The notes beneath the pieces are model-generated. The model was not told where the DNA came from. It saw only the letters and a program-made list of their open reading frames with translations, and did not search any database. DNA of 64,000 nt, taken from NCBI RefSeq assembly GCF_900156265.1, contig NZ_FTNE01000011.1, positions 1 to 64,000 of the forward strand, in the 5' to 3' direction. Source of the DNA: Acidiphilium rubrum. GTDB taxonomy: Bacteria > Pseudomonadota > Alphaproteobacteria > Acetobacterales > Acetobacteraceae. A program made the translations under genes and the position numbers. This document shows, piece after piece, positions 11,660 through 63,076 of the stretch (position 1 is the stretch's first letter; every line of letters starts with the position of its first letter).

Positions 11660-11820
11660 AGGATTTTGCGGGCTGTCCTTGTAAAATAATCGGGGCGCGG
11701 GGTGCTGCGCAATTTCCGCGAAGTCGGCGTGGGGTGTTCTGACCGATAAAACCGTTGTGGCTCAGCGGATTGCGTGGGGCGGCGGGGTCGGGCAGGTTTG
11801 GGTATTCCAAGGAGTTTCAT

Positions 11821-14490
11821 ATGGCCGAGCGTCCTGTTGCGATCCCCGCCCCTGTTGCCGAGCACCGCCTGGCCGATTATCGGCCGCCGGCGTTTCTGGT
11901 CGATACCGTCGATCTGATTTTCGATCTGGACCCGAAGGCGACGCGGGTGCGGGCGACGCTGGCGCTGCGGCGCAACCCGGCGCATGGCGATGCGGCGGCG
12001 CCGCTGGTGCTGGATGGCGAGGACCTGACTTTGAATGCGGTAGCGGTCGATGGGGTGGCGCTCGATGCTGCTGCCTATCGGCTGGGTGAGCATGGGCTGG
12101 TGATCGCGGATTTGCCGGATGCGTGCACGCTGGATACCGATGTCACGATCGATCCGGCCGGGAATACGCAACTATCGGGGCTGTATGTTTCGGGGGGCGA
12201 TTTTTTCACCCAATGCGAGGCGGAGGGGTTTCGCCGGATCACGTTTTTCCCGGACCGGCCGGATGTGATGGCGCGGTTCAGCGCGACGCTGGTTGCGGAC
12301 GAGGCGCGGTATCCGGTGCTGCTTTCGAACGGCAATCCGGTCGATCGGGGGGCGATGCCGGATGGGCAGGCCTGGGTCAAATGGGTCGATCCGCATCCGA
12401 AGCCTTCGTATCTGTTCGCGCTGGTCGCGGGGATGCTGGTTTCGGTGCATGACGAGTTCATCACCGCGTCGGGCCGCACGGTGGCGCTGGGGATTTATGT
12501 CCGCCAGGGCGATGAGGACAAGGTGGATCACGCGATGGTCTGCCTCAAGCGGTCGATGCGCTGGGATGAGGAGGTGTTCGGCCTCGAATACGATCTGGAT
12601 ATTTTCAACATCGCGGCGGTGGGGGATTTCAATGCCGGTGCGATGGAGAACAAGGGGCTGAATATTTTCAACACCGCCCTGGTGCTGGCGCGGCCGGATA
12701 CCGCGACCGATGCGGATTATCTGCGGATCGACCGGGTGATCGCGCATGAGTATTTCCATAACTGGACCGGCGATCGGGTGACCTGCCGGGATTGGTTTCA
12801 GCTGTCGTTGAAGGAGGGGCTGACCGTGTTCCGCGATCAGGAATACGGGGCGGATACCACCGATGCCAGCCTGTCGCGGATCGAGGATGTGCTGCGGTTG
12901 CGCGGCTTTCAGTTCCGCGAGGACGGCGGGCCGCTGGCGCATCCGGTGCGGCCGCCGGCCTATCGGAAGATCGATAATTTCTACACGGCCACGGTGTATG
13001 AAAAGGGTGCGGAAGTGGTGCGGATGATCCGTACCATCATCGGGGCGGATGCGTTCCGGCGCGGCATGGATATCTATTTCGCGACCAACGACAATACCGC
13101 CGCCACGATCGAGGATTTCGTCGGCGCGATGCATGAGGCGTCGGGTTACGATTTTACCCAGTTCATGCGCTGGTACGATCAGGCCGGTACGCCGGCGGTG
13201 AGTTTTGCCGGCGCGTATGATGCGGAGGCGCGGCGCTATACGTTGACGCTGCGGCAAGCGACCGCGCCGACGCCGGGGCAGGCGGAGAAGGCGCCGTTCG
13301 TGATTCCGGTGGCGCTTGGTCTGATCGGGCCGGATGGGCAGGATCTGGCGGGCACGATCGATGGTGAGACGGTGGCGGGCACGCGCGTGGTGCTGCTGAC
13401 CGAGGCGGCGCAGAGCTTCGTGTTCACCGATGTGGCGGCGGCACCGGTGCCCTCGCTGTTCCGCAATTTTTCGGCGCCGATCCGGCTGAGCGGGTATGAC
13501 CGGGCGCAGTTGGCGATGATGGCGGCGCATGACAGCGACGGGTTCAATCGCTGGGAAGCCGGCCATGAATACGCGGTGCAGGTGTTGCTCGAGGCGATTG
13601 CGGCGCATCAGCGCGGCGCGGGCTTCACGCTCGACGACGGGTTGCGCGATGCGCGGGCCGCGGCGCTCGATCAGGCGGCGGCGGCGCCGGCGTTGGCCGC
13701 ACGGCTGCTCGGTCTGCCGGGGGCTTCGACGCTGGCGGACCGGATGGCGGTGGTCGATCCCGATGCGATCCACGCCGTGCTGACCGCCGCGCGCCGTGCG
13801 ATCGGGGGGGCTTTGCAGGCGCGGTTCCAGGCGATTTATGGGCAGACCGCGTATGACGGGGCGTTCGCGGTCGATCCGGCCAGTGTGGGTCGCCGCGCGC
13901 TGCGCAATGCGTGTCTGGCGTATATCATGGCGGGTGATGAGGCGGCGGGGATCGCGCTGGCGCAGGCGCAGATCGCGGCCGATACCACGATGACCGAAAG
14001 CCTCACGGCGCTGGCGCTGCTGGTCGATACCACCAGCCCGGCGCGGGACGAGGCGCTCGCCGCGTTCCACGCGCGGTTCCAGGGCGATGCGCTGGTGATC
14101 GATAAATTCTTCGCGATCCAGGCGATGAGCAGCGCGCCGGACACGCTCGCGCGGATCGAGGCGCTGACGCGGCACCCTGATTTCGACATCCGCAACCCCA
14201 ACCGCTACCGCTCGCTGGTGTTGGCCTTCGGGTATCGCAACGCGCTGTGGTTCCACGATGCTTCGGGTGCGGGTTACGATTTCGTCGCGCGCATGACGCT
14301 CGCGGCCGACCAGGTGAACCGCAGCGTCGCGGCGCGCGGCATGGAAGTGTTCGCGGATTGGAAACGCTATGATCCGGCGCGGCAGGATAAGATGCGCGCG
14401 GCGCTGGATCGCATCATCGCGGCGAACGATCTTTCGCCGAATACGCGCGAGATGGCCGAACGCGTGCGGCACGCTGATGGTGTGAGGTAG
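11821..14490 (+). CDS. pepN: Aminopeptidase N (M1 family)
   Basis: A cytoplasmic zinc aminopeptidase that removes N-terminal residues from peptides in the last steps of protein turnover. The 889 residues match the long gammaproteobacterial-type PepN. The exopeptidase motif GAMEN is at 273-277 and the zinc site HEYFH at 309-313, with Glu332 as third ligand in LKEGLTVFRDQE. A tyrosine transition-state residue is expected in the NFYTATVYEKGAEV segment. The ATG at 11821 is chosen because AAGGAG stands 8-13 bases upstream; an in-frame ATG 66 bases earlier lacks one. The gene ends five bases before repeat copy C and is convergent with the polyketide operon. Confidence 0.96.
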   Translation: MAERPVAIPAPVAEHRLADYRPPAFLVDTVDLIFDLDPKATRVRATLALRRNPAHGDAAAPLVLDGEDLTLNAVAVDGVALDAAAYRLGEHGLVIADLPDACTLDTDVTIDPAGNTQLSGLYVSGGDFFTQCEAEGFRRITFFPDRPDVMARFSATLVADEARYPVLLSNGNPVDRGAMPDGQAWVKWVDPHPKPSYLFALVAGMLVSVHDEFITASGRTVALGIYVRQGDEDKVDHAMVCLKRSMRWDEEVFGLEYDLDIFNIAAVGDFNAGAMENKGLNIFNTALVLARPDTATDADYLRIDRVIAHEYFHNWTGDRVTCRDWFQLSLKEGLTVFRDQEYGADTTDASLSRIEDVLRLRGFQFREDGGPLAHPVRPPAYRKIDNFYTATVYEKGAEVVRMIRTIIGADAFRRGMDIYFATNDNTAATIEDFVGAMHEASGYDFTQFMRWYDQAGTPAVSFAGAYDAEARRYTLTLRQATAPTPGQAEKAPFVIPVALGLIGPDGQDLAGTIDGETVAGTRVVLLTEAAQSFVFTDVAAAPVPSLFRNFSAPIRLSGYDRAQLAMMAAHDSDGFNRWEAGHEYAVQVLLEAIAAHQRGAGFTLDDGLRDARAAALDQAAAAPALAARLLGLPGASTLADRMAVVDPDAIHAVLTAARRAIGGALQARFQAIYGQTAYDGAFAVDPASVGRRALRNACLAYIMAGDEAAGIALAQAQIAADTTMTESLTALALLVDTTSPARDEALAAFHARFQGDALVIDKFFAIQAMSSAPDTLARIEALTRHPDFDIRNPNRYRSLVLAFGYRNALWFHDASGAGYDFVARMTLAADQVNRSVAARGMEVFADWKRYDPARQDKMRAALDRIIAANDLSPNTREMAERVRHADGVR

Positions 14491-14704: not shown

Positions 14705-15493
14705 TCACCCCACCGGTGGCCGTGTGGCGACGTGGAAGCGCATTGATTTGGTGAAGAGCAGGCGGAGGGGTTCTGGGATGATCGTGGAGAGCAGGGAGCC
14801 GAGGTAGAGGGGGCGGGGGAAGCCGATGACGGCCTGGTTGGCGGCGATGCCGCGGGCGATCAGGGTGGCGGCCTGGGGGGCTTTGAGTTTCATGGGTTGT
14901 TCGCCGATGTGGCTGTCGGTCATCGCACTTTCGACATAGCCGGGGCAGGCGACCGAGACGGTGACGCCGGTGCCGGCGAGGGCGGCGCGGAGGGCGAGGC
15001 CGTAGGATAATAGTCCTGATTTGCTGGCGCTGTAGGCGGGTGCGTCGGTCAGGGGCGAGAAGGCGGCGAGGGAGCTGACCAAGGCGATGTGGCCGCGTTG
15101 TCGGCTGCGCATAGCGGGCAGGATGGCGTGGGTGGTGGCGAGGGCGCCGAGCAGGTTGATTTCGATGACGCGGGCGGCGGTGGCGAAATCTTCGATGGTG
15201 CCATCGGCGGTGCGGCCTTCGAGCACGCCGGCGTTGGCGATCAGCAGGTCGATCGGGTGGGTGGTGTCGCTGGTGGTGAGGTAGGTTGTGAGGGTTGCGG
15301 TATTGCGGGTGTCGATGCTGGCGGTCTCGACGGTCGCGCCTTTGGCGCGTGCGGCGGTGGCGATGGTGGCGAGGCGGTTTTCGTTGCGGGCGATGAGGAT
15401 GAGGGTGACGCCGGGTGCGGCGTACTGGAGTGCGAGGGCGGCGCCGATGCCGCTGGAGGCACCGGTGATGACGATGCAGTGTGGCGTGGTCAT
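14705..15493 (-). CDS. Short-chain dehydrogenase/reductase, probable 3-keto reductase of the polyketide operon
   Basis: A classical SDR of 262 residues. The nucleotide-binding motif TGASSGIG is at 10-17, NAG at 87-89, and the catalytic set is Ser140/141, Tyr154 and Lys158 (YSASK). The C-terminal 40 residues are hydrophobic (LGSLLSTIIPEPLRLLF), as in membrane-associated 3-ketosphinganine reductase-type SDRs. Its start codon shares one base with the stop of the upstream oxoamine synthase (TGATG). As last gene of a PKS-oxoamine synthase operon, its likely job is to reduce the 3-keto group of the 2-amino-3-ketone formed by that enzyme. That role is inferred from context and from the analogous fungal and sphingolipid pathways, not shown by sequence alone. 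Confidence 0.85.
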   Translation of the reverse strand: MTTPHCIVITGASSGIGAALALQYAAPGVTLILIARNENRLATIATAARAKGATVETASIDTRNTATLTTYLTTSDTTHPIDLLIANAGVLEGRTADGTIEDFATAARVIEINLLGALATTHAILPAMRSRQRGHIALVSSLAAFSPLTDAPAYSASKSGLLSYGLALRAALAGTGVTVSVACPGYVESAMTDSHIGEQPMKLKAPQAATLIARGIAANQAVIGFPRPLYLGSLLSTIIPEPLRLLFTKSMRFHVATRPPVG

Positions 15494-16884
15494 CAGGTGG
15501 CGCGCTTGATCATCAGTTTGGCGATTGTGCCGAGCGAGATGCCTTCGCGTTCGACGCCCGCGACTTCTTCGGCGGTGGCGGCGACGGCGGCGCGGATTTC
15601 GGCTTCGGTGTGTTCCGACGAGATGAAGAACCGCAGCCGGGCGGATTTTTCCGGCACGCCGGGCGGCACGATCGGGAAGGCGTTGATGCCGCGTTTGAGC
15701 AGGCGTTCGGCCAGCAGGACGGTGCGCAGGGAGTCGCCGATGATGACCGGTGTGACGGCGTAGCCGGCGCTGGTGCCGACATCGAGCCCGGCTTCGCGGG
15801 CGAGGCGGAGGAACAACTGGCCGTTGGCCTGAAGGCGGGCGACGCGCGCGGGTTCGCGGCGCATGATTTCGATGGCGGTGAGGGCGGCGAGTGCCGCGGG
15901 GGCGGGCATGCCGACGCTGTAGACCATGCCGGGGGCGGCGAGTTTCAGAAAATCGATCAGCGGGCGGCTGCCGGCGACGTAGCCGCCGCAGCTGACCAGG
16001 GTTTTCGACAGGGTGCCGAGCCAGATATCGACCCGGCGGGGATCGATTCCGGCTTGTTCGGCGATGCCGCGCCCGGTGGCGCCGAGCACGCCGACCGAGT
16101 GGGCTTCATCGACCATCAGCCAGCAATCGAAGCGGTCCTTGATGTCCACCAGGCGGGCGAGGTCGGGACCGTCGCCGTCCATCGAGAACAGGCCTTCGGT
16201 GATGATCATGACGCGTTCGAATTTGTCGCGCGTGGCGGCGAGCATGGCCTCGAGGCCGGCGAGGTCGTTGTGCGGGAACGGCCGGCGGGTGGCGCCGCTG
16301 AGCTGGGCGCCGACCACGACGCAGTTGTGGATCAGGCTGTCGTGCAGGATCAAATCCTTCGGGCCGAGCAGGGCGGCGACCGTGGAGATGGCGGTGGCGT
16401 GGCCGCTGACGAACACCAGCGCGTCGTCTGCCTCATAGATGTCGGCCAGGGCGCGTTCCAGCTGGCGGTGGAAATCGCGCTCGCCGGCGGTGATCCGGCT
16501 GGCGGAGACGCTGGTGCCCCAGGTTTTTGTCGCCTCGATCACTGCGGCGGTGATGTCCGGGTGGCCGTTCAGGCCGAGGTAGTCGTAGGAGGCGAAATTG
16601 ACCACGGGCTGGCCGGCGATCACGCTGCGCGCACCGGCCATGGCGTCGTGCACCCGGTAGAACGGGAAGTTCAGATGCAGCGCATCGGCCACCGCGCGCT
16701 GGGTGCGGAAGGCCTGGTAGGCGGGCAGGGTTTCGAACGAGGTATCGAATTTACCGGCTGATGCCGCGCTGCCCGCACTGGTGCTGCCGGCGCGGGGGGC
16801 GGGTTCGACTGCGGGGGTTTTGACCATGGTTTCCAGCAGGGCGGCCTTGAAGCCACGGCTGAAGCGCCCGCCTTCGGTCTTCAT
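15493..16884 (-). CDS. Alpha-oxoamine synthase (SPT/KBL/BioF/ALAS family)
   Basis: A PLP-dependent enzyme of the alpha-oxoamine synthase family, which condenses an amino acid with an acyl thioester, releasing CO2 and giving an alpha-amino ketone. Of 463 residues, the first ~60 form an extra Ala/Ser/Pro-rich extension. The core begins near FPFYRVHDAMAGA and continues with NFASYDYLGLNGHP, the glycine-rich GTSVSASRITAGERDFH, the cofactor-ring His/Asp in VDEAHSVGVLGATGRG, and Lys294 in TLSKTLVSCGGY as the Schiff-base lysine. Its ATG overlaps the PKS stop (ATGA). Because the PKS has no thioesterase, this enzyme probably unloads the chain from its ACP by condensation with an amino acid such as alanine, serine or glycine. 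The amino acid used cannot be read from the sequence. Confidence 0.9.
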   Translation of the reverse strand: MKTEGGRFSRGFKAALLETMVKTPAVEPAPRAGSTSAGSAASAGKFDTSFETLPAYQAFRTQRAVADALHLNFPFYRVHDAMAGARSVIAGQPVVNFASYDYLGLNGHPDITAAVIEATKTWGTSVSASRITAGERDFHRQLERALADIYEADDALVFVSGHATAISTVAALLGPKDLILHDSLIHNCVVVGAQLSGATRRPFPHNDLAGLEAMLAATRDKFERVMIITEGLFSMDGDGPDLARLVDIKDRFDCWLMVDEAHSVGVLGATGRGIAEQAGIDPRRVDIWLGTLSKTLVSCGGYVAGSRPLIDFLKLAAPGMVYSVGMPAPAALAALTAIEIMRREPARVARLQANGQLFLRLAREAGLDVGTSAGYAVTPVIIGDSLRTVLLAERLLKRGINAFPIVPPGVPEKSARLRFFISSEHTEAEIRAAVAATAEEVAGVEREGISLGTIAKLMIKRAT

Positions 16885-19800
16885 AGCAGGGTCCCCGCGG
16901 TGCTGCGTTGCGCCTCGATCGCTTCGTTGACCGCCATCAGTTCGGAGACGCCGATGTCACGCGCGCCGTGCTGCATCAGCAGGCGGCGTTCGGCATCGCC
17001 GAGGCCTGCGGGGGCGTCGGCCGTGGTCGCGGCGGCACCGGCGATCAGGCGGGCGGCGAGATCGTTGACGCTGACGCCGGAATTGATCGCGACGACCGGC
17101 AGTTCGACGCCGAAGCGGGTTTCGATGCCCATGCGGAGTTCGATGCTCATGAGCGAGTCCATGCCCAGCTCATCGAGCCGGCGGGCGGGGTCGATATCCT
17201 CCGCGGCGAGGCGGAGGATGCGGGCGACTTCGGCGGCGACCAGTGCGGCCACCAGGGCGCGGGCTTCGGCGTCCGGCTTACCGGCGATCATGCCGGCGAG
17301 GTCGAGCCCGGCGTCCGCGCTGATGCTGTCGGCGGCGGTGAACAGGCCGGCGAAACTCGGGGTTTGCAGCAGTTTCAGGGCGCGCAGCATGCCGTTCGGG
17401 CGGATGGTGGCGCAGTAGACCGTGGCGGGCACCGCATTGCCGGCGGCGAGCAGGCCGCCGAGATAGCCGAGCGCCTCACGCGCGCGCATGGCGGCGATGC
17501 CGCTGATGCGTTCGAGTTTCGCCGCGGTATCCTGGTCGCGCGCCAGCACGCCGGCATCGGCGATGGCACCCCAGGCGACCGCGAGGCCGGGCAGGCCGCG
17601 GGCGCGGCGGTTGCGCATCAGCCCTTGCAGATAGCCGTTGGCGGCGACGTAGGCCGACTGGCCGGGGTTGCCGATCATGGTGGTGGCGGAGGAATAGGCG
17701 ACGAAATAATCGAGCGCGTGGTCGCGCGTGGCGTGGTCGAGATGGGCGGCGCCGGTGATTTTGGGGGCCAGGACCGCGCGGGTGCGGGCCGGGGCGAGGT
17801 TGGCGATCAGCCCATCGTCGAGCACCATGGCGGCGTGGATGATGCCGGCGATGCGGCCGTGATCGGCCGTGAGTCGCGCGATCAGGGCGGTGACGGCGGC
17901 CTGGTCGGTCGCATCGAGCGGTTCGACCAGGATGGTGGTGCCGAGGCTGGTCATCGCCTCGGCGCGGGCTTGCAGCGCGGGTTCGAGCGTGCCGCGGCGC
18001 GAGGCGAGGACGATGGTGCGCGCGCCCTGTTCGGCGAGCCAGGCGGCGGTTTCGAACCCGAAGCCGCTGGTGCCGCCGACCACGAGATGCACGCCGGCGG
18101 CCGGTTCGAAGCGGTGGACCGGCGCGGTCGTGGCCATCGGCGGGGATGGCGGGCGGACCAGCAATTTGCCGATGTGCAGGCCCGATTGCATCGACTGGAA
18201 CGCCTCCGCCGCTGCCGGCGCATCGAACGCGCGGTAGGGCAGCGGGCAGAAATCGCCGCGTTCGAAGCCGGCCACGATGTCCTGCATCAGGGCCTGGGTG
18301 AGCGGCAGGTTGGCGGCGAGCAGCTGATCGAGGTCGACGCCGAAATAGGTCAGGTTGCGGCGGAACGGGCGCAGGCCGAGGGCGGTGTTGGCGACATAGT
18401 CGCGCTTGCCGAGTTCGATGAAGCGGCCGAACGGCTTGAGGCATTTCAGGCTGGCGAGCATGGCGTCGCCGGCCAGGGAGTTCAGCACGACATCGACGCC
18501 GCCGATCGCGTCGCGGATGTCATCGGCGAAGGCGGTGCTGCGGGAATTGAAGATGAGTTCGGCACCGAACAGGGTGGCGAGCGCGCGTTTGTCGGGCGAG
18601 CTGACGGTGGCGATGATGCGGGCACCGCGGGCGCGGGCGATCTGCATGGCGGCGATGCCGACGCCGCCGGCGGCACCGTGGATCAGCACGGTTTCGCCTT
18701 CGCGCAATTGGGCGAGATGGACCAGCCCGTACCAGGCGGTGAGGAAGGCGACCGGGATCGACGTGCTCGCCTCGACCGCCATGCCTTCGGGCAGTCTGGT
18801 GAAGACCCGCGCATCGGCGGTGGTGTGGGTGGCGAAACTCTGGCGGCCGAAGCCCATGACGGCGTCGCCCGGTTGCAGCGTGGTGACGGCGCTGCCGGCG
18901 CGGACGACGCGGCCGGCGCATTCGAAGCCGAACACCGCACCGGCCAGACCATCGTCGAGCACGTCGTCATCGAGCAGGCCGGTGGCGAGCATGACGTCGC
19001 GGAAGTTCAGGCCGGCAGCGGCGATTTCGACCTCGACCTCGTGCGCGGCGGGGGCGGTGCGGGTGGCGGGCACCCAGTCGAACTGCGAGAGCACGCCTTT
19101 GGCCGGGAGTTCGAGGCGCGCGGCCTCGACCTGATGGCTGGCTTGCCCGGTGGTGACGCCGTTGGCGAGGCGGATGGCGGTGATGCCGGTGGCATCGATC
19201 AGCAATTCCGCCTCGGTGCCTGGTGCAGCGAGCAGCGCGGCGAGATGGGGGGCGGCGCTGTCCGGCGCGAGGCCGGGTGCGAGGTCGATCAGTCTGAGGG
19301 TGATATCCGGGTATTCGTTGACCGCGACGCGGGCGAAGCACCAGAGGGCTTCGGCGGCGGGGTCGCTGCCGTCGAGACCGCTGACCACCAGCCAGAGGCG
19401 GGTGGGCAGGGCAGCGGTGGCGCCGAGCAGGGCGGCGAGATGATCGATATTGGCTTCGAGGCTGCGGTCGGCGGCGGTGAACACGTAATCGATCGTCTGA
19501 TCCGGGTGCGCGGCGGCGATGCTGGCGCAGGCCGCGCCGAAACCGGCCGGATCGGCTGCGATGGACCGCACGGTGCGGCCCTGGGCGTGGATGGTTTGGG
19601 TCAGCGCGTCGAACAGCGCTGCATGGCCGATCAGCACGGCGGGCGGGGCGGCGGCGGCGGCCGCGGTTGCGACTGCGTCGGGCCGGGCGAGCAGGATGGT
19701 GCCGGTGCCCGCACCGGTCGGGTACGGTTCGATCGCGTGGCAACCCGCGTGCAGCAGGGCGCGGCTGGCATCATGGCGCGAGACGCTGCGCGGGGCGCCG

Positions 19801-22800
19801 GCATCGGTCGCGCCGAGCAGGACATCGAGCATGATCGAATCGGTCGGTTGCAGCACCGCGATCAGGCCGGCGGGGTCGATCCGCGCGGCGAGGCCGCGGG
19901 CGAGGGCGGCATCGTCGGTGATGGCGCCGGCGAAGGCCAGGGCGAGATCATATCTGGTTTCGATCGGGGCGTCATCGGTTTCGGTGAGGTCGAGGATGTC
20001 GATACCATCGAGCGTGCCGCGCCGGGCCTGGAGGTGGCGCAGGCGTTTGCCGTCGGTGCCCGCGATGGTGACGGTGGCGCGTTGGGCGCGGATCAGCGGC
20101 AGGAGCGCGTGCAGCAGCCCCATCGAGCCGGGTTCGCCGATCAGCAGGCGCAGCGGATCGGGCGCGGTGCGACCAGCGAGGCGGCTGACCAGAGCGAGGG
20201 CGGCCTGGTGCAGCGGGGCGGCGAGGATCGAATCGGTCTCGAACTGATCGATGATCGATGCGCTGACGACAGCGCGCGCACCGGTGGCGATGGCGGCCGG
20301 CAGGCTGCGCAGCGCCTGGGCGCCGAGCACGATTTCGGGCGTCGCACCGGCGTGTTCGGCGGCGAAGGCTTCGAGGATCAGGGTGGCGGCGGGCAGGCCG
20401 GTTTCGGATGCCAGGGTCCAGCGATCGCCGGTATTGGTGGCAAGGCCGGCGGCTTGCAGACCGGCGTAGAGGCTGGCGGCGAGCGGCGATGGCGGTTGGG
20501 TTTCGCTGCGAACGGCGAGCGCCTGATGGGCGAGCGCGCGGGCGAAGGCTTCGAGGATCTGCCAGGATTCGGGCCGTTCGGTCAGCACCTGATCCTGCAG
20601 AGCGGCCACGGCATCCTGGTACAGCGCGGTACCGGCGGCGAAGCGTTCGAGCCTGATGGCGGTCTGGTGGAACAGCGCGGGGGCGGCTTTGCGGCGGTCG
20701 AACACCACGGCCCGGAACAGGCCGCCGGTCAGGGTTGCGATCACGCTGTGATCGGCGGCATAGAGCGTGGCGGCGATCGAGAGCGAATGATCGGTCTCGC
20801 GATCGACCACGACGCGGGCGCGGGCGGGGATTGCGTCGTCCTGATCGATCCGCAGATTGGCGAAGCGGACCGGCAGATAAGCGTAGCGCTCGCCCTGGCG
20901 CAGCTTGATGTTTTCGAACAGCGCGTGGAACGCGGCATCGAGTGCCACCGGGTGCAGGATGTGCGGGCGGGTGAAGGCACCGGCGGACGCCTCGATCGGG
21001 GCGAGGTCGATTTCGATGATCTTGTCGTCGCGCCGTGCGGCGAGCACGCGGCGGAAGGAAGGGCCGTAATCGACCCCGGCATCGCTCGCGCTGGCGTAGA
21101 CGCGTTCGGCGGTCATGTGGTGTGGCAGCTCCGTGGGGGCGACGAAGGCGGGCGGTGCCGAGGCCGGGCGGGTGATGCGGCCCCTGGCATGCAGCGTCCA
21201 TTCATCGCCGGCGTGGCGCGGGCGGCTCCAGATTTCGACGATGCCGGTATCGCCGGCGAGGCGGACCGAGATTTCGCGCATCTGCCCGGCTTGCAGCGGC
21301 AGCCATTGCAGCAGGTCGAAATCCTCGAGCGCGATCGGGCCTTCGGGCCAGGTTTCGCGTGCGACGGCGAGCGCCATTTCGGCGAAGCCGGTGCCGGGGA
21401 CGATGATTTCATCATCGATCCGGTGATCGGCCAGATAGGGCACGATCGTGGCATCGAGCAGGTGGCGCCACTCGGTGCCGCCGGTTTGCAGGCGGCTGCC
21501 GATCAGCGGGTGCAGCGGGGTGGTGCCGTAGAAATCGAGCGCCTCGGCGGTGTGGTTGTGCGGAAACTGGCGGCGCTGCCAGGCGTAGGACGGCAGAGCG
21601 ACGCGATGCGCTGTGGGGGCGCCGAACACGCGCTCGGCATCGAACCGGGCGCCGGCGACCAGCGCACGGGCAAGGATGGCGGTGAGCGGATCGCCGGGCA
21701 GGGCGCCGTTTTTTTCTTCGACCAGGCTGGCGAGCACCGTGCCGTCGGCGCCGATGTCGCGCAGCGTGTCGGTGATGTTGTTGCCGAGGATCGGGCGCGG
21801 GCCGATTTCGATGAACAGCGTGCCACCCTGGCGGGCGGCGGCGGTGATCGCATCGCGGAAGCGGACCGGTTCGCGCACGTTGTGCCACCAGTATTCGGCA
21901 TCGAGGCGATCGCCGGCCATCACCTCGCCGGTGACGGTGGAGATGAAACCGGTGGTCGTGCTGCTGGCCGCGATGGTGCCGAGCGCTTCGAGCAGCGGGG
22001 CGCGGATCGGCGCGAGCAGGCCAGAGTGGAACGGATAGGCCAGATCGAGCACGCGGGTGGCGATGCGGCGCTTCTGCGCGAAGCGGACGAAGCGGCGGAT
22101 GGTGGCTTCATCGCCCGACAGCGTGACCGAGGTGGGGCTGTTGCTGGCGGCGACTTCGAGGCCGGTGAAGCCGGCTTCCGCGATCAGGGTGGTGGCCGCG
22201 TCATGCGACAGGCTGGCGACCGCCATGGTGCCGAGACCGTGGACATCCTCCTGCTGCTGGCTGCGGTGATAGATGATGTGCACCGCCTGCGCGAGGCTGA
22301 TGGCACCGGCAGCTTCGGCGGCGGCGACTTCACCGACACTGTGGCCGAGCACCATGTCCGGCGCGATGCCGGCGGCGGCGAGGGCAGCGGTGAGCGAGGC
22401 CTGCACCGCGAACAGCATGGGCTGGGCGATGCGGGTGAATTTCAGCCGTGCCGCCAGATCGGGGTCATGCAGGGCGTCGACCAGGGACCAGCCGGCGAGC
22501 GGCTGGAATGCGGCGTCGATCGCGTCGAACCGCTGGCGGAACGCGGCGGCGCGCTGATAGGCGGTGCGGCCCATGCCGGCCCATTGGCAGCCGTTGCCGG
22601 AGAACACGAAGCACAGGCGGGGTGGTGCGGCCGGCGCGGTGCCGGTGGCGATGGCGGGATTGCTGCCGGTTTGTGCGAAATGCCGCAGCGCCTGGGCCAT
22701 CGCGATGCTGGAGTCGACCGGCAAAGCGAGGCGGTGGCCAGCGAGGTCGCGCTGCCAGGCGACCGCGTTGGCGATGCGGGCGGGGGCGATGTCGCTCGTG

Positions 22801-24281
22801 ACCATGAAATCGGCGAAGGCGGCGGCGGTTGCGGCGAGGGCGGCCTTGGAATGGGCGGAGAGCATCAGCACCGCGGCGGTATCGGGCGCTGCGGGGGACG
22901 CGACGGCGGTTTCGATGCCTTCGGCGGCGCGCAGCACGACATGGGCGTTGGTGCCGCCGAAGCCGAACGAGGAGATGCCGGCGTGCAGCGTGCCGGTGGC
23001 GGCGAGCGGCACCGCTTTGGTTGCCACGGCGAGGTTGAGGGCGCCGAAATCGATCGCCTGGTTGAGCGTTTCGGTGTGCAGCGTGCGCGGCAGCAGGCGG
23101 TGTTCCATCGCCAGAATGGCTTTGAACATGCCGGCGAGGCCGGAGGCGGGTTCGAGATGGCCGATGTTGGATTTGACCGAGCCGATCGGCAGGATGTCCG
23201 CGCGTTTCTGGCCCAGCGCCTCGCCGATCGCGGTGGCTTCGGCGGGGTCGCCCACGGCGGTGCCGGTGCCATGCGCCTCGGCGAAGGACAGGCGGGCGGG
23301 GTCGATGCCGGCCTCGCCGTAGATGCGTTCGAGCAGGGCGCGCTGGCCCTCCATCGCGGGGAGCGAGATGCCGGAGGTGCGGCCGTCCGAATTGATGCCC
23401 GAGGCGAGGGCGACGGCGCGGACCTTGTAGCCGCGCTCGATTGCGACATCGCGCCGGGTGAGCACCATGGCGACCGCACCCTCGGCGCGGACATAGCCAT
23501 CCGCCGCGGCGGCGAAGGGCCGGCACAGGCCGGTGGGCGAGAGCATCGAGGCGCGCGAGAAGCCGATGAACGAGGTGGGCGAGAGCAGCAGGTTGACACC
23601 CGCGACGATCGCGACATCGATCCGGCCCGAAGCGATCGCGGCCTGGGCTTCGGCGAAGGCGACCAGCGAGGAGGAGCAGGCGGTGTCGATGGTGAAGCTG
23701 GGGCCGTGAAAGTCGAAGATGTAGGAAATCCGGTTGGACAGCACCGAGAGGGTGTTGCCGGTCATGAAATGGCTCTCGATCGCGGCGGGATCGGTGGTGT
23801 GCAGATTGCCGTAATCGAGGCTGGAGGCGCCGACATAAACGCCGACTTCGGTGCCCGCGAGCGCGCTGGGCGGGATGCCGGCGTTTTCGAGCGCGCCCCA
23901 GACGACATCGAGCAGGAGGCGTTGCTGCGGGTCGATTTCGGCGGCTTCGCGCGGTGAAATGCCGAAGACCGCCGGGTCGAACCCTAGCGGATCGTCGATA
24001 TAGCCGCCCGCGAAGGTGTAGCTGAAGCCGGGCTGGCTCTTGTCCGGATGGAAGAACCGCTCGGCGCGCCACCGGCCGGCGGGCAGCGGCCCGACCGCGC
24101 AGCGTTCATCGACCAGTAATTGCCAGAAGGCAGCCTCGTCCGCGGCACCGGGCAGGCGGCAGGCGATGCCGTTGATGGCAACCTGCGAACGGTCGGGGCG
24201 GGCGGGGTTCGTGGGTAACGAAATCAAATCACTGCTCTCTTTCGGGCTGGGCAACGCAAGAAGTTTAATATTTTGCAACAT
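16881..24281 (-). CDS. Highly reducing type I polyketide synthase (KS-AT-DH-psiMT-ER-KR-ACP)
   Basis: A single-module, 2,466-residue polyketide synthase. The KS has Cys202 (DTACSSSL), His337 (EAHGTGT) and His375 (KSNIGH). The AT has the active serine 648 in GHSVG. The DH has His953 and Asp1115. A region around 1200-1480 resembles a degenerate methyltransferase (weak motif near 1376, LLIGEPGSMG). The ER NADPH loop HGAAGGVG is at 1868-1875. The KR has GGTSGFG at 2069-2075 and Tyr2211 in QSAYVAANG. The ACP carries Ser2376 in GMDSL. There is no thioesterase. All reductive domains look intact, so iterative use would give a saturated, fatty-acid-like chain. The downstream oxoamine synthase is the likely release enzyme. 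An in-frame TAG sits just upstream of the ATG at 24281. No Shine-Dalgarno is visible there, and a hairpin abuts the start. Confidence 0.95.
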   Translation of the reverse strand: MLQNIKLLALPSPKESSDLISLPTNPARPDRSQVAINGIACRLPGAADEAAFWQLLVDERCAVGPLPAGRWRAERFFHPDKSQPGFSYTFAGGYIDDPLGFDPAVFGISPREAAEIDPQQRLLLDVVWGALENAGIPPSALAGTEVGVYVGASSLDYGNLHTTDPAAIESHFMTGNTLSVLSNRISYIFDFHGPSFTIDTACSSSLVAFAEAQAAIASGRIDVAIVAGVNLLLSPTSFIGFSRASMLSPTGLCRPFAAAADGYVRAEGAVAMVLTRRDVAIERGYKVRAVALASGINSDGRTSGISLPAMEGQRALLERIYGEAGIDPARLSFAEAHGTGTAVGDPAEATAIGEALGQKRADILPIGSVKSNIGHLEPASGLAGMFKAILAMEHRLLPRTLHTETLNQAIDFGALNLAVATKAVPLAATGTLHAGISSFGFGGTNAHVVLRAAEGIETAVASPAAPDTAAVLMLSAHSKAALAATAAAFADFMVTSDIAPARIANAVAWQRDLAGHRLALPVDSSIAMAQALRHFAQTGSNPAIATGTAPAAPPRLCFVFSGNGCQWAGMGRTAYQRAAAFRQRFDAIDAAFQPLAGWSLVDALHDPDLAARLKFTRIAQPMLFAVQASLTAALAAAGIAPDMVLGHSVGEVAAAEAAGAISLAQAVHIIYHRSQQQEDVHGLGTMAVASLSHDAATTLIAEAGFTGLEVAASNSPTSVTLSGDEATIRRFVRFAQKRRIATRVLDLAYPFHSGLLAPIRAPLLEALGTIAASSTTTGFISTVTGEVMAGDRLDAEYWWHNVREPVRFRDAITAAARQGGTLFIEIGPRPILGNNITDTLRDIGADGTVLASLVEEKNGALPGDPLTAILARALVAGARFDAERVFGAPTAHRVALPSYAWQRRQFPHNHTAEALDFYGTTPLHPLIGSRLQTGGTEWRHLLDATIVPYLADHRIDDEIIVPGTGFAEMALAVARETWPEGPIALEDFDLLQWLPLQAGQMREISVRLAGDTGIVEIWSRPRHAGDEWTLHARGRITRPASAPPAFVAPTELPHHMTAERVYASASDAGVDYGPSFRRVLAARRDDKIIEIDLAPIEASAGAFTRPHILHPVALDAAFHALFENIKLRQGERYAYLPVRFANLRIDQDDAIPARARVVVDRETDHSLSIAATLYAADHSVIATLTGGLFRAVVFDRRKAAPALFHQTAIRLERFAAGTALYQDAVAALQDQVLTERPESWQILEAFARALAHQALAVRSETQPPSPLAASLYAGLQAAGLATNTGDRWTLASETGLPAATLILEAFAAEHAGATPEIVLGAQALRSLPAAIATGARAVVSASIIDQFETDSILAAPLHQAALALVSRLAGRTAPDPLRLLIGEPGSMGLLHALLPLIRAQRATVTIAGTDGKRLRHLQARRGTLDGIDILDLTETDDAPIETRYDLALAFAGAITDDAALARGLAARIDPAGLIAVLQPTDSIMLDVLLGATDAGAPRSVSRHDASRALLHAGCHAIEPYPTGAGTGTILLARPDAVATAAAAAAPPAVLIGHAALFDALTQTIHAQGRTVRSIAADPAGFGAACASIAAAHPDQTIDYVFTAADRSLEANIDHLAALLGATAALPTRLWLVVSGLDGSDPAAEALWCFARVAVNEYPDITLRLIDLAPGLAPDSAAPHLAALLAAPGTEAELLIDATGITAIRLANGVTTGQASHQVEAARLELPAKGVLSQFDWVPATRTAPAAHEVEVEIAAAGLNFRDVMLATGLLDDDVLDDGLAGAVFGFECAGRVVRAGSAVTTLQPGDAVMGFGRQSFATHTTADARVFTRLPEGMAVEASTSIPVAFLTAWYGLVHLAQLREGETVLIHGAAGGVGIAAMQIARARGARIIATVSSPDKRALATLFGAELIFNSRSTAFADDIRDAIGGVDVVLNSLAGDAMLASLKCLKPFGRFIELGKRDYVANTALGLRPFRRNLTYFGVDLDQLLAANLPLTQALMQDIVAGFERGDFCPLPYRAFDAPAAAEAFQSMQSGLHIGKLLVRPPSPPMATTAPVHRFEPAAGVHLVVGGTSGFGFETAAWLAEQGARTIVLASRRGTLEPALQARAEAMTSLGTTILVEPLDATDQAAVTALIARLTADHGRIAGIIHAAMVLDDGLIANLAPARTRAVLAPKITGAAHLDHATRDHALDYFVAYSSATTMIGNPGQSAYVAANGYLQGLMRNRRARGLPGLAVAWGAIADAGVLARDQDTAAKLERISGIAAMRAREALGYLGGLLAAGNAVPATVYCATIRPNGMLRALKLLQTPSFAGLFTAADSISADAGLDLAGMIAGKPDAEARALVAALVAAEVARILRLAAEDIDPARRLDELGMDSLMSIELRMGIETRFGVELPVVAINSGVSVNDLAARLIAGAAATTADAPAGLGDAERRLLMQHGARDIGVSELMAVNEAIEAQRSTAGTLL

Positions 24282-24447: not shown

Positions 24448-24566
24448 CTTCTTTTTTGTAAAAAAGAAGCAAAAAACTTTCTGACTCCGGGGCATGGGCG
24501 TTTCGACCGGCACGGGCCCAGATTAGCGAAGTTTTTTTTGCTTCTTTTTTGTTCACAAAAAAGAAG
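24448..24566. repeat. Family-2 paired AT-rich hairpin element
   Basis: Two AT-rich hairpins (CTTCTTTTTTG-TA-AAAAAGAAG on the left; on the right the same stem with loop GTTCAC) are joined to CAAAAAACTTT and AAGTTTTTTTTG. A GC-rich centre of about 50 bp separates them and contains GGGGCATGGGCGTTT. The two ends are inverted copies of each other, and each is itself a palindrome. The element lies between livF and the PKS upstream region. Confidence 0.85.
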
Positions 24567-24597: not shown

Positions 24598-25314
24598 TCA
24601 AGATGCCGCGCGGCCGAGATAGGCTTCCTGCATCTGGCCCGAGGCGAGCAGATTGCTTGCGTTGTCCTGGTGGATGATGCGGCCGACTTCCAGCACGTAG
24701 CCGCGGTCGGCCAGTTTCAGGGCGGCGCGGGCGTTTTGCTCGACGATCAGGATGGTGACGCCGGTATCGGCGATGCTGCGCAGGCTGCGGAAGATGCTCT
24801 GGATGATGATCGGGGCGAGGCCGAGGCTGGGTTCGTCGAGCAGCAGGAGTTTGGGTTTGGCGACCAGGGCGCGGCCGATCGCGAGCATCTGTTGTTCGCC
24901 GCCGGACAAGGTGCCGGCGAACTGGGCGCGGCGCTCGGCGAGGCGGGGGAACATGGCGTAGATCGCCTCGACGCTGGCGGGGATTTCACCGGCCGGGCGG
25001 GTGAAGCCGCCGAGTTTCAGGTTTTCCGCGACCGTGAGGGTGCCGAACACGCGGCGGCCTTCGGGCGATTGCGCGATGCCGAGGCGCACGATGCGGTCGG
25101 CATTGGTGCGGGTGATATCGGTGCCTTCGAAGCCGATGGTGCCGCCGGTTTTGGGCAGCAGGCCGGAGATGGCGCGCATCAGCGTGGTCTTGCCGGCACC
25201 GTTCGCGCCGAGGATGGCGACCACCTCGCCCGCCGCGACGGTGAGGGAGACGCCTTTCAGCGCCTCGATCTGGCCATAGGCGACGCGCAGATCGTTGATC
25301 GTGAGCAAGCTCAT
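24598..25314 (-). CDS. livF: ABC transporter ATP-binding protein, LivF type
   Basis: One of the two ATPases of a branched-chain amino acid-type (HAAT family) importer. The 238 residues are the normal LivF length. Walker A GANGAGKTT is at 36-44, with signature LSGGEQQ and Walker B LLLLDEPSLGLAP, and the LivF-type C-terminus ends at ASGQMQEAYLG. The ATG at 25314 overlaps the livG stop (ATGA); the frame remains open further upstream but those residues are meaningless low-complexity sequence. It is the last gene of the livKHMGF set. HAAT systems also carry urea, amides or other solutes, so the substrate here is not certain. Confidence 0.93.
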   Translation of the reverse strand: MSLLTINDLRVAYGQIEALKGVSLTVAAGEVVAILGANGAGKTTLMRAISGLLPKTGGTIGFEGTDITRTNADRIVRLGIAQSPEGRRVFGTLTVAENLKLGGFTRPAGEIPASVEAIYAMFPRLAERRAQFAGTLSGGEQQMLAIGRALVAKPKLLLLDEPSLGLAPIIIQSIFRSLRSIADTGVTILIVEQNARAALKLADRGYVLEVGRIIHQDNASNLLASGQMQEAYLGRAAS

Positions 25315-26093
25315 GCCGCGGTTGCCTCGTCGTCGTCCCGGCCGAGATAGGCTTCGATCACCGCGGGGTTGGTGCGGATCGCGGTGGCATTGCCTTCGGC
25401 GATCTTGCGGCCGAAATTGATCACCACGATATGGTCGCTCACCTGCATCACCACATTCATGTCGTGCTCGACCAGCAGGATGGTGACACCGGTATCGCGG
25501 ATCATGAAGATGGTATCGTTCAGGGCGGCCGATTCCGCATCGTTCAGCCCGGCGGCCGGTTCGTCGAGAATGATCAGCCTGGGTTGGCCGGCGAGGGTGC
25601 GGGCGAGTTCGACGCGGCGCTGCACGCCATAGGGCAGCGAGGTTGCCGGTGTGTCGGCCACGCCTTCGAGATCGAGGCGGCGGAGGATGTCGTGGGTGCG
25701 GGCGGCGAGTTCGGCTTCCTCGCGGCGCTGGGCGGGCAGGGCGAGCAGGCCCTGCCACCAGTGCTGGCGGGCGGCGAGATGGCAGCCGGCGCGGACGTTT
25801 TCGAACACGCTCATGTCGGCGAACAGGCGGATGGTCTGGAAGGTGCGGCGCAGGCCCAGCGTGGCGATGCGGGCGGGTTTGGCGCCGGTGATGTCGTTGC
25901 CCTGCCAGCGGATCGTGCCGGAGGCGGGTTTGTAGACGCCGGTGATCATGTTGAAGACGGTGGTCTTGCCCGCGCCGTTCGGCCCGATCAGCCCGACGAT
26001 CTGGCCCTGGTTGACGGTGAAGCTCAGATCGTCGACGGCGCGCAAGCCGCCGAAGCTGATGCCGATGCCGTCGAGTTCGAGCAGTGCGGTCAT
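25311..26093 (-). CDS. livG: ABC transporter ATP-binding protein, LivG type
   Basis: The second ATPase of the importer, 260 residues. Walker A GPNGAGKTT is at 37-45. The LivG-type segment GLRRTFQTIRLFADMSVFENV follows, then a degenerate signature (LPYGVQRRVELARTLA) and Walker B LIILDEPAAGLN. The longer C-terminal part ending NPAVIEAYLG separates LivG from LivF. It overlaps livM upstream and livF downstream by four bases each (ATGA), so the whole set is translationally coupled. Confidence 0.93.
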   Translation of the reverse strand: MTALLELDGIGISFGGLRAVDDLSFTVNQGQIVGLIGPNGAGKTTVFNMITGVYKPASGTIRWQGNDITGAKPARIATLGLRRTFQTIRLFADMSVFENVRAGCHLAARQHWWQGLLALPAQRREEAELAARTHDILRRLDLEGVADTPATSLPYGVQRRVELARTLAGQPRLIILDEPAAGLNDAESAALNDTIFMIRDTGVTILLVEHDMNVVMQVSDHIVVINFGRKIAEGNATAIRTNPAVIEAYLGRDDDEATAA

Positions 26094-46591: not shown

Positions 46592-46710
46592 CTTCTTTTT
46601 TGTAAAAAAGAAGCAAAAAACTTTCCAACCCTGGGGCACGGGCGTTTTCAAAGGCACGGACCCAAATTAAAAAAGTTTTTTTTGCTTCTTTTTTGTTCAC
46701 AAAAAAGAAG
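46592..46710. repeat. Family-2 paired AT-rich hairpin element
   Basis: Same design and orientation as the element at 24448: left hairpin CTTCTTTTTTG-TA-AAAAAGAAG, CAAAAAACTTT, a ~48-bp centre with CTGGGGCACGGGCG and GGCACGGACCCA, then AAGTTTTTTTTG and the right hairpin with loop GTTCAC. The centre is clearly homologous to those at 24448 and 59627. It lies between the 3' end of holA and the start of the formylglutamate amidohydrolase gene. Confidence 0.87.
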
Positions 46711-59626: not shown

Positions 59627-59745
59627 CTTCTTTTTTGTGAACAAAAAAGAAGCAAAAAAAACTTTGTTAATCTAGGTCCGTGCCGGTGAAACCGCCCATG
59701 CCCCAGCTCAAAAAAGTTTTTTGCTTCTTTTTTTCAAAAAAGAAG
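59627..59745. repeat. Family-2 paired AT-rich hairpin element, inverted orientation
   Basis: Left hairpin with loop GTGAAC, CAAAAAAAACTTT, a centre whose reverse complement contains CTGGGGCATGGGCGG and GGCACGGACCTAGATTA (homologous to 24448 and 46592), then AAAAGTTTTTTG and the right hairpin. It is the inverse of the other two homologous copies. It lies immediately upstream of the hypothetical gene at 59793. Confidence 0.86.
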
Positions 59746-62206: not shown

Positions 62207-63076
62207 TCAGTTCAGGTCGGGCTCGTCGAACACCGCATAGGCGCGGCCGTTCGCATCGCGCGCCTTGATCACCATGTCCGGCCGGTGGTGAATGCCCGAG
62301 TAATGCGTGATCAGCGATTTGCGCAGCGTGCCGGGCTGGCTGGGCGAACCGCGGTGGATCAGCCGGCTGTGCCAAATCAACACATCGCCCTTCTTGCCCA
62401 GAAACGGCACCACCGGAATGCCGCAACCCGCGATCTTCGCCTCGATCGCCGGGGTCACGAATCGCTCGGCGTATTTCGGCCATTGGTTGATGCCATGCGC
62501 CGGCTCGATCCGGGTGAGCTCTTCCTCGGTCAGATGCGCGCGCACCCGCGCGCCGCGCATCAACCCCCAGCGATGCGAGCCCGGCACGTATTCGAACGGC
62601 CCGCTGTCGGGTGCGATATCATCAAGCGCGATCCATACCGCCGCATACCAGGTGTTGACGAAATCCGGGTTCAGATAATCGTCCTGATGCCATTCGCGCC
62701 CGGTGGTCACCCAGGCGGTCAACGCCAGATGAAACAACATCTCTTCGCCGACCAGCGCGCCCAGCAGATCCATCAGCGGCGGATACAGCGCCACATCGCG
62801 CAGGCTCGGCAGCCCGACATAGCAATGCCCGTATTGCCAACCCGCCAGATGCCCCTTGACACCGGCGCGATAGGCGGCCCGCCGCTCGATATAGGGGTCG
62901 AGCAGGGCATCGGGGATGAAACCGCGCTTGATCACCACGCCATCCCGCCGCCACGATGCCTGATCGGCGGTCAACCCCGCCTCATCGACCCCGGGTCGAT
63001 CGAGCGGCGGCAAGGTTGCGGGGTCGGGGAACTCGACCAGATCCTCGAATGTCACCATGGTCTCCGATTCCGACAT
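62207..63076 (-). CDS. Phytanoyl-CoA dioxygenase-family protein
   Basis: A 289-residue Fe(II)/2-oxoglutarate-dependent dioxygenase-like protein. The facial triad is visible: His130 and Asp132 in GREWHQDDYLN, and the distal His241 (or 236) in LIWHSRLIHRGSPS with the 2-oxoglutarate arginine in LRKSL. The segment WIALDDIAPDSGPFEYVPGSHRWG is typical of PhyH. Such enzymes hydroxylate fatty acyl, ectoine or natural-product substrates; the substrate here is unknown. Convergent with nadK. Confidence 0.9.
   Translation of the reverse strand: MSESETMVTFEDLVEFPDPATLPPLDRPGVDEAGLTADQASWRRDGVVIKRGFIPDALLDPYIERRAAYRAGVKGHLAGWQYGHCYVGLPSLRDVALYPPLMDLLGALVGEEMLFHLALTAWVTTGREWHQDDYLNPDFVNTWYAAVWIALDDIAPDSGPFEYVPGSHRWGLMRGARVRAHLTEEELTRIEPAHGINQWPKYAERFVTPAIEAKIAGCGIPVVPFLGKKGDVLIWHSRLIHRGSPSQPGTLRKSLITHYSGIHHRPDMVIKARDANGRAYAVFDEPDLN

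Follow-up and report, generated by a model that had tools for sequence, protein, structure and literature searches.

What product is made by three coupled genes of the acidophile Acidiphilium rubrum, and whether this product belongs to a capsule, are the questions raised by a stretch of 64,000 nucleotides (assembly GCF_900156265.1, contig NZ_FTNE01000011.1, positions 1 to 64,000), hereafter referred to as the window. On its minus strand, positions 14705-24281 encode a polyketide synthase (PKS), a pyridoxal phosphate (PLP)-dependent alpha-oxoamine synthase (AOS), and a short-chain dehydrogenase/reductase (SDR). Their junctions, ATGA (4-nt overlap) and TGATG (1-nt overlap), bear out the coupling described in a first-pass annotation, which proposed an amino-alcohol lipid as the product. 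The operon is quite probably a self-contained sphingoid-base pathway, in which a chain would be built iteratively, condensed with serine, and reduced to a sphinganine-type base. The direct observations are the gene content, the intact motifs, the common descent with other PKS-AOS-SDR operons, and the finding that no AOS of the source genome exceeds the canonical serine palmitoyltransferase (SPT) cut-off. PKS-AOS(-SDR) homologues are grouped together in many other genomes, and the gene set is therefore beyond chance.

A characterized system of the same make-up is PfSgaAB of Pseudomonas fluorescens MYb115, which yields C24, C26, and C28 sphinganines and most likely also phosphoglycerol derivatives of them (PMC12134224). 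PfSgaB is an SPT that, assayed with acyl-CoA surrogates, favours serine almost exclusively over alanine and glycine, while PfSgaC is the presumed 3-ketodihydrosphingosine (KDS) reductase; 6,101 homologous clusters were reported by the same authors (PMC12134224). In all our sequence comparisons, a Pseudomonas plasmid cluster (L048) stands in for the MYb115 genes, and its locus-tag spacing equals the published one (PKS to AOS 5, AOS to SDR 25). L048 and the window share a monomodular fully reducing PKS beside an AOS of the same clade (57% identity) and a related SDR (43% identity). However, the SDR gene of L048 comes in fifth place behind the AOS gene, genes for PhyH, PF05159, GNAT, and lipoteichoic acid (LTA) synthase-like proteins lying in between, whereas the three Acidiphilium genes are directly coupled and stand alone.

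The polyketide synthase

The PKS gene (16881..24281, minus strand) encodes a monomodular type I protein of 2466 residues. Pfam analysis reports KS, AT, DH, ER-type (ADH_N, ADH_zinc_N), KR, and ACP domains and does not return any thioesterase domain (E <= 0.001), confirming the fully reducing single module without thioesterase of the first-pass annotation. Together with the motif alignment and the tree, this assigns the protein to the SgaA/RkpA/WcbR type. The catalytic motifs of the window protein are intact, as judged from an alignment of 27 PKS rows. Between DH and ER, a segment of ~550 residues returns no Pfam methyltransferase match and has no recognizable SAM-binding motif, suggesting a degenerate methyltransferase-like region and hence the putative order KS-AT-DH-(MT-like)-ER-KR-ACP. 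The single module and the PfSgaA precedent suggest that the PKS probably works iteratively. In a tree of 34 hand-chosen PKS rows, the window protein belongs to a stand-alone group of 10 rows (support 100/100), which comprises two further Acidiphilium and other Alphaproteobacteria, a composition that recurs in the AOS and SDR trees.

PKS and AOS are annotated as a single protein on plasmids of Planktothrix and Streptomyces (L080 and L081). Two further candidate fusions were rejected. The PKS-AOS open reading frame of genome G188 (L054) contains an unresolved base at the ACP followed by a different sequence, and it was therefore treated as an assembly artefact and not counted as a fusion; the L054 rows remain in the AOS, PKS, and SDR trees. 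The long alternative open frame of genome G138 (L061) runs in a different frame from the PKS.

The alpha-oxoamine synthase

The AOS gene (15493..16884, minus strand) encodes 463 residues, and profile and structure matches, the tree, and residue counts place the protein in a PKS-linked clade, with a predicted role as an SPT-type release enzyme. This clade comprises 63 of the 69 rows of the AOS tree (support 100/98) and is separate from three canonical SPT and three paralogues of the source genome; 21 loci repeating others and the distant L046 were left out, and L067 was dropped as identical to L028. The stand-alone group comprises 12 rows (99/95). The first branch of the clade is an Acidisoma AOS with no PKS beside it. 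For 58 of the other 62 clade loci, a PKS of this type is encoded in the same locus, with only its C-terminal part present in the short loci, and the remaining four lie at contig ends. Lys294, His186, Asp259, His262, and Arg418 are invariant in all 63 clade rows.

The window AOS shares its family and catalytic residues with canonical bacterial SPT but differs from them in its separate clade and in scoring below the cut-offs of the SPT models NF047599 (257.0 of 500 bits), NF047600 (267.5 of 640), and NF047603 (181.1 of 670). It also scores below those of the BioF, KBL, and 5-aminolevulinate synthase (ALAS) models (TIGR00858, 345.2 of 426.45 bits; NF005394, 281.7 of 460; TIGR01821, 214.8 of 338.55). 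The AOS of the Pseudomonas PKS cluster is likewise under every NCBIfam cut-off, with BioF as its best match, and NCBIfam therefore seems to offer no curated model of the clade.

Could the AOS simply serve biotin or heme synthesis? BioF is indeed its top NCBIfam name, and its top solved-structure match is of the BioF/KBL type (5.9e-56), level with SPT (7.1e-56). However, the source genome encodes three other AOS, one BioF-like (422.9 bits, just short of the TIGR00858 cut-off) and two ALAS-like that both pass the ALAS cut-off (G000:C33 and G000:C39, or L003 and L004). With the position of the AOS in the tree and its coupling to a PKS, these separate genes make such a role, which the first-pass annotation had listed as a way for its proposal to fail, highly improbable.

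Four AOS genes were found in the source genome, and all score below 259 bits on NF047599, short of the canonical SPT cut-off. The wider survey covers 299 genomes of the collection's own family, for which NCBI labels differ (Acidocellaceae for Acidiphilium sp. PA, Acetobacteraceae for Acidisoma), with E-value limits that we chose (1e-90 for the AOS, 1e-150 for SPT). Canonical SPT is found in 97 of these genomes, and the source genome is not among them. SPT and AOS occur together in 17, and the two are thus not mutually exclusive. SPT-based surveys would miss the operon since no AOS of the genome exceeds the canonical SPT cut-off.

The extra N-terminal region noted in the first-pass annotation is present and covers residues 1-45 (16750..16884, minus strand). 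It bears an LLxx(M/L) motif that 22 of the 30 AOS rows listed have; the eight rows without it include Pseudomonas, Caballeronia, Paraburkholderia, Methylobacterium, and Acidisoma. This extension is a possible docking element for the PKS.

The reductase and the proposed pathway

The third gene (14705..15493, minus strand) encodes an SDR of 262 residues at the SgaC position. The first-pass annotation was right about the family but not about a hydrophobic C-terminus, as a crude hydropathy scan flags no segment there. The protein is 43-44% identical to the SDRs of the Pseudomonas, Caballeronia, and Paraburkholderia clusters, while its best paralogues in the source genome are 36-39% identical over query residues 7-230 and 8-190. 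In a tree of 27 hand-chosen rows, the stand-alone group comprises 11 (86/85). Gene context and PfSgaC lead to its prediction as a 3-ketosphinganine reductase.

If we assume that the operon works as PfSgaABC does, the PKS, iterating with full reduction, would assemble an acyl chain, long and probably saturated, while its own ACP carries it. Possibly docked to the PKS, the AOS would then join this acyl thioester to serine in a decarboxylative condensation, thereby releasing a 3-ketosphinganine-type product, the keto group of which the SDR would reduce to give a sphinganine-type 2-amino-3-hydroxy lipid. Serine use, the long chain, and the sphinganine product are taken from PfSgaABC by homology, the SgaC step being itself presumed, while the hand-over from the ACP, the docking, and any head group are what we infer.

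The chain might also leave the PKS by another route, set free in trans by a separate thioesterase or acyl-CoA ligase, with acyl-CoA as the substrate of the AOS. PfSgaB does accept acyl-CoA in vitro (PMC12134224), and the source genome returns eight PF00975 matches, four of them over the cut-off. However, these matches, candidates for the trans-acting thioesterase considered in the first-pass annotation, are partial (74-119 of 226 positions), and all lie on contigs other than that of the window. The coupled genes and the single PKS-AOS proteins found elsewhere favour the direct unloading of the ACP proposed in the first-pass annotation, and the acyl-CoA route appears rather unlikely.

Several features weigh against the sphingoid-base pathway as such. 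The AT motif of the PKS is YPFH, which matches neither the classic malonyl motif HAFH nor the methylmalonyl motif YASH. The PKS and AOS trees conflict in their deeper branches, for instance in the placement of Pseudomonas and Caballeronia. The BioF-leaning profile and structure matches of the AOS described above belong here as well. The SDR passes no NCBIfam cut-off among the best 25 of 210 families, no KDS reductase is present among the best 60 of its 563 structure matches, a paralogue from the same genome (L093) sits with the cluster SDRs inside a 23-row group, and at L037, a member of the stand-alone group of 12 loci, the 10 kb after the AOS contain no related SDR.

The serine pocket is a further point against. 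In SmSPT, Asn52 makes a water-mediated contact to the serine hydroxyl (PMC10196870). All 63 clade rows carry a Tyr at this position. At Ser129, the counterpart of SmSPT Ser81, a Ser is present in 61 of the 63 but also in the BioF-like paralogue, and the pocket residues of the AOS therefore do not reveal whether it uses serine. The Tyr would fit an AOS that takes another amino acid, alanine or glycine, leading to a 1-deoxy or other amino-ketone lipid. However, the L048 proxy of PfSgaB is itself among the 63 Tyr rows, and PfSgaB strongly prefers serine (PMC12134224), which makes this alternative improbable.

Related clusters in the literature

The amino-alcohol chemistry of the first-pass annotation agrees with PfSgaAB and with the trees. 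Its remark that it knew of no assigned product for this gene arrangement is outdated by the Pseudomonas product (PMC12134224), by a group delineated in 2021 (PMC8776678), and by the link of RkpA/WcbR-type PKS with capsules (PMC3908369, PMC3557214). The operon is therefore not without precedent, since its chemistry has one and its cluster type is already in print. The 2021 survey divides the type-1 PKS of Acetobacteraceae into four groups; its delta group, in which a PLP aminotransferase and an oxidoreductase accompany the PKS, includes Acidiphilium angustum and is given no product in the section that describes it, while the alpha and gamma clusters carry capsular genes (PMC8776678). Like the delta-group clusters, the operon combines a PKS with a PLP enzyme and an oxidoreductase in an acidophilic species. 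Judging from this gene content and from the membership of A. angustum, it is probably the same thing.

The RkpA/WcbR type was described from capsule clusters (PMC3908369), and rkpA together with rkpGHIJ is reported to be responsible for the synthesis, modification, and transport of a lipophilic compound, possibly a lipid carrier or anchor of the capsule (PMC3557214). The rkp-1 clusters of Sinorhizobium and the wcb clusters of Burkholderia share the PKS type and the PKS-AOS-SDR gene set with the window. In contrast to them, the operon of the window has no linked capsule (PF05159) genes, and the rhizobial SDRs are only 29-33% identical to that of the window. The wcbT and wcbP genes are presumably the AOS and SDR genes of the wcb clusters. 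The S. meliloti locus L047 comprises export, PKS, AOS, SDR, sulfatase-family, and PF05159 genes, to which we apply the rkp names by assumption. Of note, its record CP090106.1 is labelled S. meliloti pSymB but is 3.72 Mb long, presumably nearer to the size of the S. meliloti chromosome, and the label may be wrong.

The fungal fumonisin and sphingofungin pathways, named in PMC12134224, follow the same logic of reducing PKS, oxoamine synthase, and ketoreductase.

Capsule clusters and stand-alone operons

PF05159, which we take to be the family with the KpsC/KpsS role in capsules, distinguishes two settings of the AOS. In the 299 family genomes, the AOS occurs in 98, including six under 350 bits (G022, G068, G088, G116, G226, and G269), PF05159 in 117, and both in 80. 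Among the 98, at least 68 have PF05159 no more than 12 kb from the AOS, in 12 it is not shown to be nearby, and 18 lack it. The operon could accordingly produce a lipid that anchors a capsular polysaccharide, a role put forward for the rkp-1 clusters. This linkage argues for it, as do the frequency of PF05159 in AOS-positive genomes compared with AOS-negative ones (80 of 98 vs 37 of 201, the genomes being related and not independent, so that the Fisher p value comes out too small) and the LTA-synthase-like genes of PF05159-type-linked loci (10 of 15 distinct ones, with queries drawn from five of the loci). A PF00884 membrane protein is frequent in capsule-linked clusters; it is annotated as LTA synthase family in L048, L049, L079, and L082, and Pfam was run on five proteins of this type (L047, L048, L049, L050, and L082).

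The stand-alone group differs in this respect. No PF05159-like or LTA-synthase-like match is found across the 64-kb window, and PF05159 is near the AOS in none of the six stand-alone-type family genomes (G000, G010, G018, G139, G188, and G259). It is found neither in the source genome nor in eight of the ten stand-alone-type genomes tested (two of them 85% and 89% complete), the exceptions being G018 and G259, in which it lies on another contig or far off. A scan of the flanks of loci of at least 11 kb, which puts the stand-alone L039 and L055 outside its scope, reports no PF05159-like, LTA-synthase-like, or capsule export match in the available flanks of 10 of the 12 stand-alone loci, some of them with little sequence on one side (455 bases in L038). 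It returns weak ABC-ATPase cross-matches in the flanks of the window and L035 and a weak PhyH match in the window at 62 kb. The Acidisoma LTA-synthase-like protein has no match in the source genome in a search run without a positive control, and the only PF00884 protein of this genome over the cut-off bears a CxPSR motif, which we take to be a sulfatase signature. A capsule anchor is thus an unlikely product of the Acidiphilium operon.

On an Acidisoma plasmid (L082, 11037-23929), AOS and SDR genes without a PKS adjoin sterol desaturase family, PF05159, LTA-synthase-family, and capsule ABC genes; this locus is a PKS-free version of the module.

How could the two settings be related? Lyso-phosphatidylglycerol is a capsule lipid anchor, and LtaS chemistry would suggest a role of LTA-synthase-like enzymes in phosphoglycerol transfer. 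In the rkp/wcb-type clusters, a PKS-made sphinganine might be converted by the LTA-synthase-like enzyme to phosphoglyceryl-sphinganine, a mimic of lyso-phosphatidylglycerol acting as the capsule anchor; the Acidiphilium-type operon would then be a version of this module detached from the capsule, providing a free-standing sphingoid lipid in a bacterium that lacks canonical SPT. We regard this scheme as possible rather than probable. If MYb115 shares the genes of L048, its phosphoglycerol sphingolipids would most naturally be attributed to the LTA-synthase-like enzyme. The main text of PMC12134224 contains no word starting with capsul, rkp, or wcb, and in the open-licence literature, to the exclusion of subscription papers and preprints, we found no link between the 2025 Pseudomonas sphinganines and the rkp/wcb capsule-lipid genes. 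Joining the two leads to a testable prediction of what capsule-cluster PKS make. The stand-alone operon, having no linked capsule gene, is a convenient subject for such studies, and with it the organisms predicted to make sphingolipids by a PKS come to include an acidophile. To the published record, the present analysis adds the stand-alone grouping in three trees, the distribution of capsule genes, and the finding that the four AOS of the source genome all stay under the canonical SPT cut-off.

Genomic setting

The operon is flanked by a gene for a peptidase M1 of the aminopeptidase N type (11755..14490, plus strand) and by genes for branched-chain amino acid type ABC ATPases (24598..26093, minus strand), both outside it. 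The third-position GC content (GC3) of its genes (0.86-0.87) is similar to that of the neighbouring genes, and its composition thus bears no sign of foreign origin. The closest named relative is Acidiphilium sp. PA, with an AOS 96% identical to that of the window. With the source genome counted, the AOS is found in three of 13 Acidiphilium genomes (E <= 1e-70) and in nine of 385 genomes of a class-wide sample (E <= 1e-140). At a 45% identity limit and in the available flanks, one relative (L035) has only the ABC side in common with the window, and the other (L036/L051) has neither side.

A PhyH-family protein is encoded at 62207-63076 (minus strand) of the window, and a PhyH gene also lies within the Pseudomonas cluster L048. 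A near-perfect palindrome of 26 bases occurs in the window at 24541-24566, 46685-46710, and 59627-59652 (six matches when both strands are counted, against none in 100 shuffled sequences). The first copy is located upstream of the PKS gene, accompanied by a partial copy at 24448-24475, and the palindrome looks like a dispersed repeat element.

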